Part shown: positions 3,184-19,036 of the stretch, piece by piece | How positions within the stretch are numbered: the first letter of the stretch is position 1 | Layout: the number at the start of each line of letters is the position of its first letter | The notes under the pieces: model-generated | The model's database searches: none | What the model was told of the DNA's origin: nothing | What the model saw: only the letters and a program-made list of their open reading frames with translations | Origin: Leuconostoc mesenteroides subsp. mesenteroides ATCC 8293 | GTDB lineage: Bacteria; Bacillota; Bacilli; Lactobacillales; Lactobacillaceae | NCBI RefSeq assembly: GCF_000014445.1 | Contig: NC_008531.1 | Location: forward strand, 1,805,001 to 1,869,000 | DNA length: 64,000 bases | Direction of reading: 5' to 3' | Program-made: the position numbers and the translations under genes

Positions 3184-4242
3184 TTACTGCAACGTTAGCT
3201 TGAGATCTTCTGCTTTAATCATTTTTAACTTAGTCATGAATAACCATTTTAAAACTGTGGCGATAATAACAGGAAGTATGACAAATACCAGCAGAATGCT
3301 GAATATAGATACAAGACTTTTGTCTGATTCCGACCAAGCAGTCAACGGACCGACTAATCCAGAAAATCCAAATCCTGCGGAAAATGGCGTCCCTTTGATA
3401 TTCAACATAGTTGCTACCGCCCCCATTATTGCCGCACCAATACTTGTTGGTATAAATAATTTGGGTTTCACTAACATATTTGCCATTTGAATTTTTGGCG
3501 AGCCAACAAAATGCGCCAACGTACCACCAATGGGATTCACACTAGCGCCCATTAACGCTAATGTAAAACTTGCCACTGTAATTCCTGCATTAGCAGCGCC
3601 TGATCCAACTCCTGCCAGGCTAATAGCCATCGCAATACCTACCGAAGATAACGGGGAAACAATAAGAAAAGCAAAAATCACCCCCAAGGCCGCGCCCATT
3701 ACTAGTGGTGTTAATTCAGTAGCATAAGCGACGCCATCCCCTATCCATGTTTGCAAGACACTGATCGGCTGTAAAGTCATCAGCCCAATACCGCCGGCAA
3801 TAACCGCTACAAATAATGGCTGTAATAATATTTTAAAATGTCCAAAAGATTTCTCAGTGAACTTCACCAATATAGATGCCAAAAACGCTACGAGCAAAAT
3901 ATTGAGCATCACACCGCTACCAGAAATGATTGCGCCATTGGCTGTGCTTTTCACAACACCAGCAGAAACAAACATCGAAAGCGCGATGGCCCCTGAATCA
4001 ATTACTGTCAATTTTAAAATTTGACCCACAGCAAATCCTGCTACTAATGGCAATGTACTTTGAATCAGTGTCGTCATAAACGCAATCTGGGTAGCAATTT
4101 CGTTACCAGAAAACAATAGCAGTAATTGACTGACCAATGCACTAGGAATTAAAGTCAAAACTATACCCAAGCTCGTACCATTCAATATATCAATAATGAA
4201 TTTTTTTATTGTTGCCGCGGAACTATGTTTAACTGATTTCAT
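3184..4242 (-). CDS. PfoR-like PTS EIIC-type membrane protein
   Basis: A 352-residue polytopic membrane protein with about ten hydrophobic segments and Gly-rich loops, including the GGTLAHFVGSPKIQMANMLV region near residues 240-260. It resembles the PTS_EIIC_2/PfoR family, EIIC-like permeases that usually occur without EIIA or EIIB partners. Neither partner is nearby. A ribosome binding site (AGGAAAG) precedes the ATG. It is the last gene of the operon behind the aminotransferase and dehydrogenase, 34 nt after the latter. The substrate is unknown. The operon context suggests an aromatic amino acid, keto acid or hydroxy acid rather than a sugar, which is inference. No convincing terminator is visible between its stop and the rrn promoters. 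Confidence 0.75.
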   Translation of the reverse strand: MKSVKHSSAATIKKFIIDILNGTSLGIVLTLIPSALVSQLLLLFSGNEIATQIAFMTTLIQSTLPLVAGFAVGQILKLTVIDSGAIALSMFVSAGVVKSTANGAIISGSGVMLNILLVAFLASILVKFTEKSFGHFKILLQPLFVAVIAGGIGLMTLQPISVLQTWIGDGVAYATELTPLVMGAALGVIFAFLIVSPLSSVGIAMAISLAGVGSGAANAGITVASFTLALMGASVNPIGGTLAHFVGSPKIQMANMLVKPKLFIPTSIGAAIMGAVATMLNIKGTPFSAGFGFSGLVGPLTAWSESDKSLVSIFSILLVFVILPVIIATVLKWLFMTKLKMIKAEDLKLTLQ

Positions 4243-4276: not shown

Positions 4277-5266
4277 TTAAACTTCGTGTGGTGAAGATTG
4301 TCCGTTTAGTATCATTAAAGTATCATCTAACGAAATATCAACCATGTTCTTGACGGCTATGTTAGTAAAGAAGCCAACATGTGGCGTAATAATTACGTTT
4401 GACATTGATAATAGTTTTTGGATGCGTGCATCTTGCACCCCCTGACCATGTAAATCGTGATTGAAAACACCGGACTCATTTTCCACCGTATCCAGTGCCA
4501 CGGCACCCACTTGACCATTCCCTAAAAAAGTAATTAAATCACTTGTGTTGATAACTGGGCCACGCGAAGCATTTATTAACAACACACCCTTTTTCATTTT
4601 TAGGAAATCCGCCTCAGAAAGCAAATGAATTGAAGTTTCATTTAAATCGACATGTAAACTGATTACGTCACTTTGTGCCAATAGCTCATCTTTTGTAACG
4701 TAGGTAATCACATCACAAAGTGAAGCATCGCGGTCTGTATCGTAACCTAAGACATTGACACCAATACTATTTAGTAGTTTTGCCAATGTCCCACCAATTC
4801 GTCCTACACCGACAATGCCGATAGTAACAGAGTGAATTTCTCTCGCTTGAAGACCTGTCCAGCGAAAATCATTGTTAGCAATCCGTTTGTCAAATTCTGG
4901 CGTATGACGCAATAATCTCAGGATCTGCATAAGCGCCATTTCGGCTACTGATCTTGGTGAATAGGCTGGTACATTTGTTATTTTCAAACCAGCTTTTTTA
5001 GCCAGATCAACTTCAATCATGTCATAACCAGCAGTCCGTGTCGCTATTTGAGTTATTTGTTTAGCAATATGATGATAAAATTGTTGATCCCCACCAATTT
5101 TTGCAGTTTGTTGTATGACTAATCCGTCAATTTCTGTTAAGTCAGGTAGTGTTTCAGGATGGAAATCATCACGAGAAATCACTATTTCCACATTATTCTT
5201 TTCAGCGTAGTGACGAATAGCCTGCTCTTCGTCACTACGCACACTTGTCATCAATATTTTATTCAT
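4277..5266 (-). CDS. D-2-hydroxyacid dehydrogenase (D-lactate dehydrogenase family)
   Basis: A 329-residue NAD-dependent enzyme reducing 2-keto acids to D-2-hydroxy acids. The Rossmann motif GVGRIGG is at 153-159. An Asp follows the second strand (GYDTD, residue 176), pointing to NAD over NADP. The catalytic Arg235 (NASRGP), Glu264 and His296 (TPHVGF) are present. Length is normal for D-LDH-type enzymes. Its start overlaps the aminotransferase stop by 4 nt (ATGA), so the two are translationally coupled. With a transaminase upstream and a Phe/Tyr leader peptide in front, the likely substrates are phenylpyruvate and hydroxyphenylpyruvate, giving phenyllactates. Lactate dehydrogenase activity cannot be excluded. 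Confidence 0.88.
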   Translation of the reverse strand: MNKILMTSVRSDEEQAIRHYAEKNNVEIVISRDDFHPETLPDLTEIDGLVIQQTAKIGGDQQFYHHIAKQITQIATRTAGYDMIEVDLAKKAGLKITNVPAYSPRSVAEMALMQILRLLRHTPEFDKRIANNDFRWTGLQAREIHSVTIGIVGVGRIGGTLAKLLNSIGVNVLGYDTDRDASLCDVITYVTKDELLAQSDVISLHVDLNETSIHLLSEADFLKMKKGVLLINASRGPVINTSDLITFLGNGQVGAVALDTVENESGVFNHDLHGQGVQDARIQKLLSMSNVIITPHVGFFTNIAVKNMVDISLDDTLMILNGQSSPHEV

Positions 5267-6456
5267 TTACCATTTTCTTCCATATAAGCAGTCAAACGGT
5301 GCATAGCTTTTTGCAATGTTTCAATGGATGCCGCATAGCTTAGTCGAACATATCCTTCTCCTCCAGGACCAAATGACGAACCTGGAATCAAAGCTAGACC
5401 ATTATTTTGAGCTAAATCACGAGCAAAAGCAAAATCATCCTGAATATAGCCAGCCGGTATTTTAGCAAATATATAGAATGCCCCATCTGGTTTAGCAACT
5501 TTAAAACCAAGTTGTGTCATTGTGTCATAAACATAATCACGTCGTTGAAGATACTCAGCCTTCATGACTAACGTATCTTGCCGCCCTGCCTCTGTCCCTA
5601 ACGCCTCTGCAGCTGCAGCCATAGCTGGATTAGAGGCAGTTGTTGTTGCAAATTGGTGAATCATCGCTATTTTTTGAACCAATTGTGCTGGACCAGCCAA
5701 AATACCAATGCGATAACCCGTCATTGCATGTGATTTTGAAACACCATTCAGCAAAATTGTTTGTTCAGGCAAATATTTAGCCATTGATACATGACTATTT
5801 TCATATGATAGTTCAGAGTAAATTTCATCGGAAATAACAATAATGTCAGTACCACGCAAAACATCTGCAATCGCTTTTATTTGTTCATCATTGTAAGTAA
5901 CCCCAGTTGGATTAGATGGAAAGTTTAATACAACAGCTTTGATATCATCCCCATGCTTGGCAATTGCAGCCTTGAGCATCTCTGGACTTAACACAAAATC
6001 ATTTGAAGAAGTGTCGATAAATACTGGTTCAGCACCATCTACTAATCCCACTGCTATATATAATGGAAAAATCGGTGTAGGGAGTATTATTTTATCCCCC
6101 GGATTTAATATAGTTGTGAGCGTATCATAAATAGCTTCAGTTGCCCCTATAGTTACAATAATTTCGTTAGTAGGATCGTAATCGATATCATAACGGTCTG
6201 CCAAAAATCCAGCCGCAGCCTCACGTAAATGGATCGTACCATTTGATGCAGCATAGTGTGAATCATTTGCTTCAATCGACCGAATTGCCGCTTGTTTGAT
6301 GTGATCGGGTACATTAAAATCCGGTTCCCCTAACGTCAGCTTAATAATATCTGGAATCTCACTCACCTCAATATCAAATGCTCGAATAGCAGATGGACCA
6401 ACAAGTTTCAAATGTTGATTGAGATTATTCAATAACGAGGGTTTTACTTCTGGCAT
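5263..6456 (-). CDS. PLP-dependent class I/II aminotransferase, probably aromatic
   Basis: A 397-residue fold-type I aminotransferase. The PLP lysine is Lys241 (GVSKSHAMTG), with Asn182 in SNPTG, Asp210 (ISDEIYS) and Arg249 around the cofactor. It resembles the PatA/AraT-like group of lactobacilli. It is the first structural gene of a three-gene operon. Its ATG has a good Shine-Dalgarno (TAGGGAGA) 30 nt past a terminator hairpin. The leader encodes a peptide with five aromatic residues out of seven near its end. This argues for a role in Phe/Tyr synthesis (phenylpyruvate or hydroxyphenylpyruvate transamination) or catabolism. Substrate specificity is inferred from the leader, not from the active site. 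Confidence 0.88.
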   Translation of the reverse strand: MPEVKPSLLNNLNQHLKLVGPSAIRAFDIEVSEIPDIIKLTLGEPDFNVPDHIKQAAIRSIEANDSHYAASNGTIHLREAAAGFLADRYDIDYDPTNEIIVTIGATEAIYDTLTTILNPGDKIILPTPIFPLYIAVGLVDGAEPVFIDTSSNDFVLSPEMLKAAIAKHGDDIKAVVLNFPSNPTGVTYNDEQIKAIADVLRGTDIIVISDEIYSELSYENSHVSMAKYLPEQTILLNGVSKSHAMTGYRIGILAGPAQLVQKIAMIHQFATTTASNPAMAAAAEALGTEAGRQDTLVMKAEYLQRRDYVYDTMTQLGFKVAKPDGAFYIFAKIPAGYIQDDFAFARDLAQNNGLALIPGSSFGPGGEGYVRLSYAASIETLQKAMHRLTAYMEENGK

Positions 6457-6480
6457 AATTTTCTCCCTAATTTAACACAA

Positions 6481-6514
6481 AACGCACATCCAGAAAAAAT
6501 TCTGAATGTGCGTT
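6481..6514 (-). terminator. Attenuator terminator in the aminotransferase leader
   Basis: On the minus strand AACGCACATTCAGAA pairs with TTCTGGATGTGCGTT around a T4 loop, 15 bp with one G-U, followed by TTTGTGTT. It ends 24 nt before the aminotransferase ATG, inside its transcript. The 5' arm can alternatively pair (CATTCAGA) with TCTGAATG just upstream at 6541-6549, an antiterminator candidate. Confidence 0.75.
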
Positions 6515-6595
6515 TGCTCAAATGTAGATGAACTCACTAGGCATTCAGAGGGTTAATCCGAATACCTACGCAAAATGCCTTAAGTACTTGGATAG

Positions 6596-6652
6596 TTAGC
6601 CAAAATACTTAAAGTAAAAATTTGCTGTAGTTTTGTTCATTAAATGTGACAT
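6596..6652 (-). CDS. Phe/Tyr-rich leader peptide (attenuator uORF)
   Basis: An 18-codon ORF, MSHLMNKTTANFYFKYFG, starts about 27 nt after the predicted transcription start. A modest AAAGG lies upstream. Residues 12-17 (FYFKYF) contain three Phe and two Tyr. The codons for the aromatic run form the 5' arm of a hairpin: TTTAAGTATTTTGG pairs with CCAAGTACTTAA. That hairpin is followed by a second hairpin (GGCATT with AATGCC) and then the terminator. This is the textbook layout of ribosome-mediated attenuation, analogous to the enterobacterial PheL leader. It is too short for ordinary gene finders. Translation is not proven. Confidence 0.7.
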   Translation of the reverse strand: MSHLMNKTTANFYFKYFG

Positions 6653-6685
6653 TGTGTTAAAACCTTTTTTATTTTTATGAGATTA

Positions 6686-6714
6686 ATTTTAATATTAATT
6701 CCATCATTTGTCAA
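6686..6714 (-). promoter_or_regulatory. Promoter of the aminotransferase operon
   Basis: On the minus strand TTGACA (6714-6709), 17-nt spacer, TAAAAT (6691-6686). The predicted start near 6679 gives a leader of about 220 nt, long enough for the leader peptide and all attenuator hairpins. Confidence 0.7.
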
Positions 6715-6731
6715 GTTTCTTATTAACAAAA

Positions 6732-7438: not shown

Positions 7439-8839
7439 ATGTCACTTCTTGCGCGAGCTTTTAAGCGGGAATCTGTTGATAATTACCTGAGTGCAGATTC
7501 ACATATGTCGCGTGTTTTAACAACGCGCGACTTGATTAGTCTAGGAGTAGGCACAGTCATTGGTACAGGAATATTTATTTTACCCGGCCACGAAGCCGCT
7601 GATCATGCAGGTCCAGCAGTCGCTATTGCATTTCTAATTGCTGCAATTTTCTCTGGATTATCAGGTATGGCTTTTGCTGAGTTCTCAGCAGCCATGCCAG
7701 TTGCTGGCTCAGCTTACTCATACGGGGGTGCTATTTACGGAGAAATCATTGGTTGGCTATTGGGTTGGTCATTAATTGTTGAATATTTCTTAGCAGTATC
7801 AGCAATTGCAACCGGATTTTCAGCCTACCTTGGTAATTTATTAGCTATATTTGGCATTCACATCCCTAAATATCTATCTGCCGGTCCAATGGAGGGCGGA
7901 ATTGTCAATTTATTTGCAGTATTAATTATTTTATTCGTCGCTGCTATACTATCACGAGGATTAAACACCTCAAAGAAAGTTGAAAATGGCGCAGTCGTTA
8001 TCAAAATTGCCATTTTAATCTTGTTCATTGTTGGCGGATCATTTTTTATTAAAACAAGCAATTATGTACCATTTTACCCTAAAGAATTTCACAGTGGATT
8101 GGGCGGTTTGAACGGAATTTGGGCCGCAACCGCCAGCATTATTTTTGCTTTTCTAGGCTTTGATACCATCGCCGCCCACGCTGCTGAAGTTAAGAACCCA
8201 CAAAAGACAATGGCCAAGGGTATTGTTGGTACGGTTATTATTTCAGCCCTATTATATACACTCTTCTCTATAGTGTTAACGGGAATTGTCAATTATAAAA
8301 AACTTGGTGTTGATGACCCAGCAGCATTTGCTCTGCAAGTTGTCCATCAAACACAGTTCTCTATCGTCATTACTATTGGTGCGTTAATCGGTATGTTCAC
8401 AGCTGTATTAGCCTTGATCTATGCTTCATCCCGTTTAACTTATTCCTTCGGGCGTGACGGTTTGCTCCCCCGCAGCCTAGGTAAAATATCCCCAGGATCG
8501 CATTTACCAGTAAATGCACTAATTTTGGCAGTTGCCGTTGAGGTTATTTTTGCGGGCCTTATCCCCCTCAGCACATTGGCTAGTTTAATTAATGCAGGTA
8601 CTTTAACAGCATTCGCCTTTATCAATTTTGGTATCTTAATCCTTCGTCGTCGTAAAGATTTAGCTCACGATGGTTTCAAAGTACCTGGCTATCCAATTGT
8701 ACCGTTTATTGCGGGTATGATAAGTTTGTTCTTTATTACACAGCTATCTGCCGAGACACTCAAAATGTTTGGCCTCTGGTTACTACTTGGTGTTATCTGG
8801 TACTTCTCCTATGGCATTAAGCATTCTAAATTATCATAA
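7439..8839 (+). CDS. APC-superfamily amino acid permease (cationic amino acid transporter type)
   Basis: A 466-residue protein with about 12 to 14 membrane segments. TM1 has the APC signature GVGTVIGTGIFILPG at about 36-50. Later come the conserved FAFLGFDTIAAHAAEVKNP region of TM6 and the SSRLTYSFGRDGLLP loop. This combination is typical of the CAT/YfnA subgroup of proton-coupled amino acid importers. A GGGAGA site precedes the ATG. The gene is monocistronic, ending in a strong bidirectional terminator. The exact substrate cannot be read from the sequence. Confidence 0.88.
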   Translation: MSLLARAFKRESVDNYLSADSHMSRVLTTRDLISLGVGTVIGTGIFILPGHEAADHAGPAVAIAFLIAAIFSGLSGMAFAEFSAAMPVAGSAYSYGGAIYGEIIGWLLGWSLIVEYFLAVSAIATGFSAYLGNLLAIFGIHIPKYLSAGPMEGGIVNLFAVLIILFVAAILSRGLNTSKKVENGAVVIKIAILILFIVGGSFFIKTSNYVPFYPKEFHSGLGGLNGIWAATASIIFAFLGFDTIAAHAAEVKNPQKTMAKGIVGTVIISALLYTLFSIVLTGIVNYKKLGVDDPAAFALQVVHQTQFSIVITIGALIGMFTAVLALIYASSRLTYSFGRDGLLPRSLGKISPGSHLPVNALILAVAVEVIFAGLIPLSTLASLINAGTLTAFAFINFGILILRRRKDLAHDGFKVPGYPIVPFIAGMISLFFITQLSAETLKMFGLWLLLGVIWYFSYGIKHSKLS

Positions 8840-18845: not shown

Positions 18846-19030
18846 AAAAGTCATTATATAATCACTTTTCAAAGCGCACCGCATTTCTGCGACAGTCTAG
18901 CAACTCTTAATCACTAGCCCAAAGGTTATCTTGCCTGTTAACCCTTTCGGCAACCTTCCCTTTTACATGATTTCAACATCCTGGCGGACTCATTCATGTG
19001 ACTCATGTTGGCTGCAACCTCTTTGACAAT
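18846..19030 (-). promoter_or_regulatory. Lysine riboswitch (L box)
   Basis: The minus-strand leader of lysP carries L-box core elements: AGAGGTTGCAGCC near the 5' end, AAGGGAAGGTTGCCGAAAGG in the middle, and AGACTGTCGCAGAAATGCGG toward the 3' side. The aptamer is followed by a terminator and then lysP. Lysine binding is known to favour termination in this class. Confidence 0.9.
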
Positions 19031-19036
19031 ATGAAA

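Follow-up and report, generated by a model that had tools for sequence, protein, structure and literature searches.

The window analyzed here, a 64,000-nt stretch of the genome of Leuconostoc mesenteroides subsp. mesenteroides ATCC 8293 (Lactobacillaceae, Lactobacillales), contains on its minus strand a leader (6714-6476) that is flanked by a guanylate-kinase-like gene (7325-6732) and an aminotransferase gene. Within 240 bases of this leader, a promoter, a Shine-Dalgarno (SD)-like stretch, an 18-codon open reading frame (ORF), and a strong terminator are packed in succession, upstream of the aminotransferase gene set (Table 1). The closest Protein Data Bank match of the aminotransferase is 4my5, followed by 1dju, which is named as an aromatic aminotransferase. 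A D-2-hydroxyacid dehydrogenase gene comes next, and the gene for a PF13303 membrane protein is probably the third member of the operon, with which it would be co-transcribed. Elsewhere in the window, a lysine riboswitch is located at 18864-19031 (minus strand).

Table 1. Leader elements and the genes behind them, in window coordinates
Feature	Position	Strand	Basis or details
Promoter TTGACA-17-TAAAAT	6686..6714	-	11/12 consensus match
Shine-Dalgarno-like AAAAAAGG	6663..6670	-	Read from sequence
Leader peptide ORF MSHLMNKTTANFYFKYFG	6596..6652, stop included	-	ATG at 6652, 18 codons
Control codons 12-17, TTT TAC TTT AAG TAT TTT (FYFKYF)	6602..6619	-	Stall scan
Segment 1, inside control codons	6606..6614	-	Alignment helices, covariation, stall scan
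Segment 2, partner of 1 or 3	6578..6586	-	Helices, covariation, stall scan
Segment 3, partner of 2 or 4	6557..6568	-	Helices, covariation, stall scan
Segment 4, partner of 3 or 5	6540..6549	-	Helices, covariation, stall scan
Segment 5, terminator 5' arm	6502..6512	-	Folding, helices, covariation, stall scan
Segment 6, terminator 3' arm and U-rich tail	6476..6493	-	Sequence, folding, helices, stall scan
Class I/II aminotransferase, first gene	5263..6456	-	PF00155; best NCBIfam PRK07309, 567.8 bits vs. cut-off 576
D-2-hydroxyacid dehydrogenase, D-lactate dehydrogenase-like	4277..5266	-	PF02826/PF00389; PDB 4xkj
PF13303 membrane protein (Pfam name PTS_EIIC_2)	3184..4242	-	Domain match

A first-pass annotation of this DNA had described a consensus promoter, an 18-codon ORF with FYFKYF at residues 12-17, a hairpin made of these aromatic codons, and a 15-bp terminator ahead of the structural gene. 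Each of these was recovered, with CUUUAAGUA (6614-6606) pairing with UACUUAAGG (6586-6578) in the codon hairpin and a terminator stem of ~15-16 bp. The second hairpin described at the time also exists and holds TCTGAATG, a possible partner of CATTCAGA in the 5' arm of the terminator (helix 4:5, all 8 pairs present in the window leader), but its conserved 5' arm is GGUAUUCGGA (6566-6557), with UCUGAAUGCC as the partner, rather than GGCATT. The minimum free energy of the leader is -70 kcal/mol, compared with a mean of -41.4 kcal/mol (sd 4.05) for 200 shuffles (z = -7.05). Overall, six segments can be arranged in two mutually exclusive folds, namely, 1:2 + 3:4 + 5:6, which includes the terminator, and 2:3 + 4:5, the antiterminator; the alternative folds of the originally proposed Phe/Tyr attenuator are upheld by covariation (see below), whereas its four-segment architecture gives way to one of six segments.

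For a comparison across relatives, the aminotransferase was searched in 60 genomes, and the region upstream of the best match was inspected in the 30 loci returned, 19 of which come from the same genus. The leader is retained in 18 of these 19 genomes, the window's own included, and all 18 peptides consist of 18 codons and end in [FY]YF[KW][YC]F plus one residue, the C terminus and the length being constant and the N-terminal half variable. In these 18 leaders and that of L013, from another genus, the upstream promoter departs from the consensus at no more than 2 of 12 positions and AAGG, GAGG, or GGAG occurs near the SD position (19/19 in both cases), and a terminator-like hairpin is present in all 57 leaders scanned. 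The first-pass annotation had pointed to relatives as the place where its reading could fail; there, both the peptide and the stems are conserved. In the one exception (L020, in the same-genus genome G003), the peptide is lost, and promoter-like and terminator-like remains seem, by eye, to persist, as in a decaying attenuator.

Both folds are supported by an alignment of 18 leaders (A1), 17 from the same genus plus L013, from which L017 was left out because its upstream stretch is identical to that of L016. Pairing reaches 100% of the cells for helix 1:2, 95.9% for the terminator-state helices (28-50% with the partners slid), and 94.8% for the antiterminator-state helices (21-37% with the partners slid), with the outermost 2:3 pair missing in 5 of the 18 sequences. 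None of 500 shuffles attained the covariation score of either state; for pairs with changes in both partners, 7 and 20 of 500 did at least as well in the two analyses, and the count of further standard pair types did not exceed that in shuffles (matched by 341 and 450 of 500); these A1 shuffles leave the relatedness of the sequences in place, and the independent events are few. The clearest substitution concerns codon 15, which is TGG (Trp) in 12 of the 18 aligned leaders and AAG (Lys) in the other six (the window leader and five more), where the change is matched both in segment 2 (CCAA to CUUA, or CUUG in L004) and in segment 3 (to UAGG), leaving 1:2 and 2:3 intact. This compensation, which may have arisen just once, in one clade, fits selection on RNA pairing more readily than selection on the amino acid. 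Because TGG is replaced by AAG with both helices kept, Trp is dispensable at codon 15, and the conserved residues of the cluster, as read from the alignment, are Phe and Tyr, not Trp. Sensing of Trp by the peptide was considered as well and rejected, given that W is replaced by K in the six aligned leaders and by S, T, G, or R in others. As codon 15 encodes Lys in the clade of the window, shortage of Lys should also act there.

These features suggest how the leader might work. A ribosome would translate the 18-codon peptide while RNA polymerase is making the leader. With ample charged tRNA-Phe and tRNA-Tyr, the ribosome would reach the stop codon and leave, so that 1:2, 3:4, and 5:6 would pair, with 5:6 terminating transcription. 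If those tRNAs were short, the ribosome would stall on FYFKYF and cover segment 1, whereupon segment 2 would take segment 3; formation of 2:3 would free segment 4 to capture segment 5 before segment 6 is made, the terminator would come too late, and the aminotransferase operon would be transcribed. In a stall scan of the window leader, the RNA was folded up to the terminator 5' arm with a ribosome footprint masked, from 14 bases upstream of the first P-site base to 15 bases downstream of it. In this folding model, P(4:5) amounts to 0.96-0.99 with codons 12-17 in the A site, that is, exactly FYFKYF, compared with 0.22 or less at codons 2-11, 0.52 at Gly18, and 0.04 at the stop codon.

Among the relatives, the response varies. 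When the mask extended through the stop codon and the transcript ended after segment 5, 13 of 18 leaders switched to 2:3 + 4:5, four (L010, L011, L015, and L016) barely switched, and L013 did so in part, its 4:5 helix already standing at 0.64 without the mask. In the full-length leader at equilibrium, the terminator forms, masked or not, in all of the 17 leaders, out of 18, that have mapped terminator columns, the alignment columns missing the terminator of L013. Since the terminator wins at equilibrium in the full-length RNA, antitermination must be kinetic, as it is in known attenuators. A generic scan based on automatically found terminators placed the control codons above the stop codon in 48 of 57 leaders and in 31 of 42 more, mostly by little outside the genus, a difference above 0.2 being seen in 11 of the 39 leaders that do not belong to the L001-L019 set and in 6 of the 42 from the RF02863 class introduced below; in L254 and L255, the terminator finder seems to have picked the wrong hairpin. 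Because these differences are mostly small outside the genus, no claim on individual leaders rests on the generic scan.

Strong RNA conservation could also be expected if a trans-acting RNA-binding protein or a metabolite switched the same RNA, with the ORF being incidental. We consider this scarcely plausible: 18 of the 19 genus genomes retain the reading frame, its start, the SD, and the aromatic content, an aromatic ORF is present at all 49 RF02863 loci that were opened, and the switch of the window leader coincides with the control codons in the folding model. Taken together, the leader has a short translatable ORF rich in codons for the amino acids that would be sensed, as far as the sequence tells; an intrinsic terminator ahead of the gene; a mutually exclusive antiterminator supported by covariation, with some measures not above shuffles; and a switch that, in the folding model of the window leader, depends on the position of the ribosome at the control codons, and that is weak in several relatives. 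Conservation, covariation of both folds, and the switch at the control codons thus speak for the Phe/Tyr leader-peptide attenuator originally proposed, and we regard it as highly probable that the element is a ribosome-mediated transcription attenuator sensing the supply of Phe and Tyr, a mode of regulation predicted from sequence and modeled folding. In the cell, we infer, it senses tRNA charging and responds by antitermination.

A covariance model built from the 18 A1 leaders (R1), which is blind to downstream genes, gave one strong match in the window's own genome; at E ≤ 1, it detects the element in 123 of the 397 genomes of the family, spread over 26 of 40 genera. Sixty match places, 59 of them outside the genus, were opened by our choice among the matches listed, and 53 of these have an aromatic leader peptide. 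An aminotransferase gene is the first related gene at 31 places, an APC amino-acid permease gene at 9, a PF13303 gene at 7, and a gene for an ABC transporter of the PF04392/PF02653 type at 5; eight places have no related gene, one of them near a contig end. Six matches (L092, L094-L096, L100, and L222; E 0.003 to 0.18) come with neither a peptide nor a related first gene. The order aminotransferase, hydroxyacid dehydrogenase, PF13303 protein seen in the window recurs in at least 9 of the 31 aminotransferase loci, a lower bound because the fragments span only about 4 kb. By the searches with R1 and RF02863, the element is not confined to Leuconostoc and extends farther than the first-pass annotation had envisaged. 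The APC permease gene that adjoins the operon in the window (7439-8839, plus strand) has no R1 match before it; permeases of the same Pfam families in other genera have one. One permease-type leader peptide (L086) has no related gene that we could find downstream, and at L065, L083, L098, L099, L204, L206, and L208, the PF13303 protein is the first related gene after the aromatic leader; the PTS-derived name of this family, PTS_EIIC_2, may be misleading.

A scan for the peptide upstream of 61 named aminotransferase loci yielded matches in 23, compared with 8 on reverse-strand controls, and some of the 23, such as L142 and L143, are unlike the leader. Because the peptide criterion is loose when used alone (8/61 on the reverse strand), we place weight on the peptide, the RNA, and the target jointly. 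Farther afield, a QLNN-type leader lies upstream of an aminotransferase in Sporolactobacillus shoreicorticis, of the order Caryophanales (L136), and two Bifidobacterium aminotransferase homologs (L163 and L164) have in common a small upstream ORF containing FTYWWHG.

Repeated sequences or peptides were removed before the motif, scan, and alignment counts. Of the 101 distinct leaders found beyond the genus (among L064-L273), 66 contain the motif [QK][LMS]N, mostly just ahead of the aromatic cluster and outside the described helices, and these leaders belong to different genes and families; exact QLN occurs in 57 of 100 distinct peptides. Such a distribution is what might be seen if the nascent peptide, with free Phe/Tyr or a small molecule, arrested the ribosome in place of hungry codons, in the way that TnaC arrests the ribosome with Trp. 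Yet none of the 16 distinct Leuconostoc peptides, the window's included, contains QLN, their N-terminal half is the variable one, the central residue of the cluster is not constant either (W, K, S, T, G, R), and the preference for AAT as the Asn codon of the motif (63/66) could instead mean an RNA signal, so that we consider arrest by the peptide very unlikely, the hungry Phe and Tyr codons being the preferred trigger.

The Rfam family RF02863 ("Enterococcus sRNA 2410") belongs in the same context. R1 and RF02863 both match the ABC-type leaders L072, L097, L103, and L219 (R1 E 1.9e-7 to 0.027; RF02863 over its cut-off), and RF02863 matches neither the window leader, at its gathering score, nor any place in the window's own genome; its kinship with the window leader, traced by model matches, runs through these shared intermediates. 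The RF02863 consensus starts with UUAGCUACUUUAGAUAG, which in the loci takes the form (UU)U AGC UAC UUU AGA UAG, reading F S Y F R stop. At E ≤ 0.001, the family occurs in 214 of the 395 genomes searched in the order, 98 of which exceed the cut-off, and a single genome may carry as many as five copies; of 299 genomes searched in the class, 26 have a match, including 5 that do not belong to the order. Forty-nine loci were opened among the matches listed (the best 30 plus 19 that we picked), and all 49 have an aromatic leader peptide, with YFSYFR in 42 and QLN in 39. The genes that follow encode an ABC transporter in 39 cases, with a binding protein resembling that of L072, and otherwise are aroE (7), a DAHP synthase gene (2), and aroC (1). 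NCBIfam names confirm all 10 aro/DAHP enzymes, 9 of them over the curated cut-off among the models shown and L266 half a bit under it, and for the three ABC binding proteins examined, the TrpX model (NF041285) gives E values of 1e-80 or better, with scores below its cut-off. In an alignment of 39 leaders of this class (A4; 8 near copies among 47 removed, helices positioned by eye on L224), pairing between the codons and segment 2 is seen in 99-100% of cells, 2:3 in 99%, 3:4 in 93%, 4:5 in 84%, and 5:6 in 89%, compared with 4-68% with the partners slid. Outside 5:6, this support comes mostly from conserved sequence, not from covariation, and 2:3 has no pair changed on both sides.

The name of RF02863 points to a 195-nt Enterococcus faecium RNA that was validated by Northern blot, with two bands, and is listed in one table as increased under daptomycin (2.3-fold by RNA sequencing, 4.1-fold by qPCR); the main text of that report has zero occurrences of attenuat-, leader, tryptophan, or ABC transporter (PMC5593968). 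With this validation, the daptomycin response, and the filing as an sRNA, the element might be taken for a stand-alone, trans-acting sRNA ended by a terminator, the downstream gene having its own promoter. In 52 of the 60 R1 places and in all 49 RF02863 loci opened, it lies in the same orientation upstream of related aromatic or transport genes, and the alternative antiterminator fold is kept, which makes a free-standing sRNA extremely improbable. Conversely, we infer that the validated Enterococcus "sRNA" is a prematurely terminated leader, which would explain its existence and would not account for the daptomycin change.

The window leader and the larger set of Lactobacillales aromatic leaders, with RF02863 as one branch, presumably share common descent. 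A bolder proposal is that there is one ancient Lactobacillales aromatic leader-peptide regulon, comprising the aminotransferase/hydroxyacid dehydrogenase, APC and TrpX-type transporters, PF13303 proteins, and aroE/aroC/DAHP synthase, with one branch filed as an sRNA and the QLN nascent peptide acting as a sensor beside codon hunger; in this full form, we deem it unlikely. For the operon itself, induction on Phe/Tyr shortage, if it occurs, means that the enzymes should work towards amino acids, which suggests that the dehydrogenase and the aminotransferase salvage aromatic hydroxy and keto acids, the physiological aim presumably being to make or salvage Phe and Tyr from such precursors. This direction would oppose the production of phenyllactate for which lactic acid bacteria are known, and the proposed reading ties the little-understood PF13303 membrane family and a D-hydroxyacid dehydrogenase to aromatic metabolism.

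Amino-acid genes of lactic acid bacteria are usually linked with T-boxes, which control such genes by tRNA charge. No T-box (RF00230) was detected in the window at the Rfam gathering score or in the leader at E ≤ 10, in line with the first-pass annotation, which had seen no T-box sequence here, and no related Rfam family emerged from either search. Across the genome as a whole, T-box matches at E ≤ 0.001 number 24, of which 8 exceed the cut-off, and the leader is not among these places. Matches upstream of tyrS, trpB, and pheS belong to the 24, the one at pheS exceeding the cut-off, so that aromatic genes elsewhere in the genome use T-boxes, unlike the operon behind the leader, which would share with them the control of amino-acid genes by tRNA charge and differs in having a peptide leader. 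The Leu/phe leader RF01743, which we take to be a peptide leader, resembles the window leader in coming from Lactobacillales and differs in that its model is not among the window-leader matches at E ≤ 10; it is listed for Lactococcus lactis, a member of that order (PMC2864571). Within Firmicutes, leader peptides are also on record for his genes in bacilli, in a study by Naville and Gautheret that regards the occurrence of regular leader peptides in this phylum as notable (PMC2965389), and for a Leu-rich attenuator in Staphylococcus aureus (PMC5794164); they are of the same general kind and differ in the amino acids and genes concerned. Leader-peptide attenuators are thus already known, also in Firmicutes, whereas a full-text literature search, judged on titles and the starts of abstracts and with subscription papers mostly outside its reach, returned no description of the aromatic family itself, which would give lactic acid bacteria a peptide-based aromatic regulon. 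RF02863 has the same order of parts as the window leader, shares ABC-type leaders with it, and can accommodate the six-segment pairing, and differs in an extra hairpin within the 1:2 loop, in YFSYFR in place of FYFKYF, and in its annotation as an sRNA.

The enterobacterial pheA and pheST operons use leader-peptide attenuators (pheL and pheM) that are similar to the leader described here in the Phe-rich peptide, alternative folds, intrinsic terminator, and aromatic target; the Phe leader families of Rfam are absent from the leader matches up to E 10, and the present leader departs from pheA/pheST in its six segments, mixed Phe and Tyr codons, Gram-positive host, and targets that include a hydroxyacid dehydrogenase and transporters. 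The his operon leader (hisL), with six segments, A-F, is likewise without an Rfam match to the window leader and carries His codons where aromatic codons are found here, but it has the same relay, in which 1:2, 3:4, and 5:6 alternate with 2:3 and 4:5.
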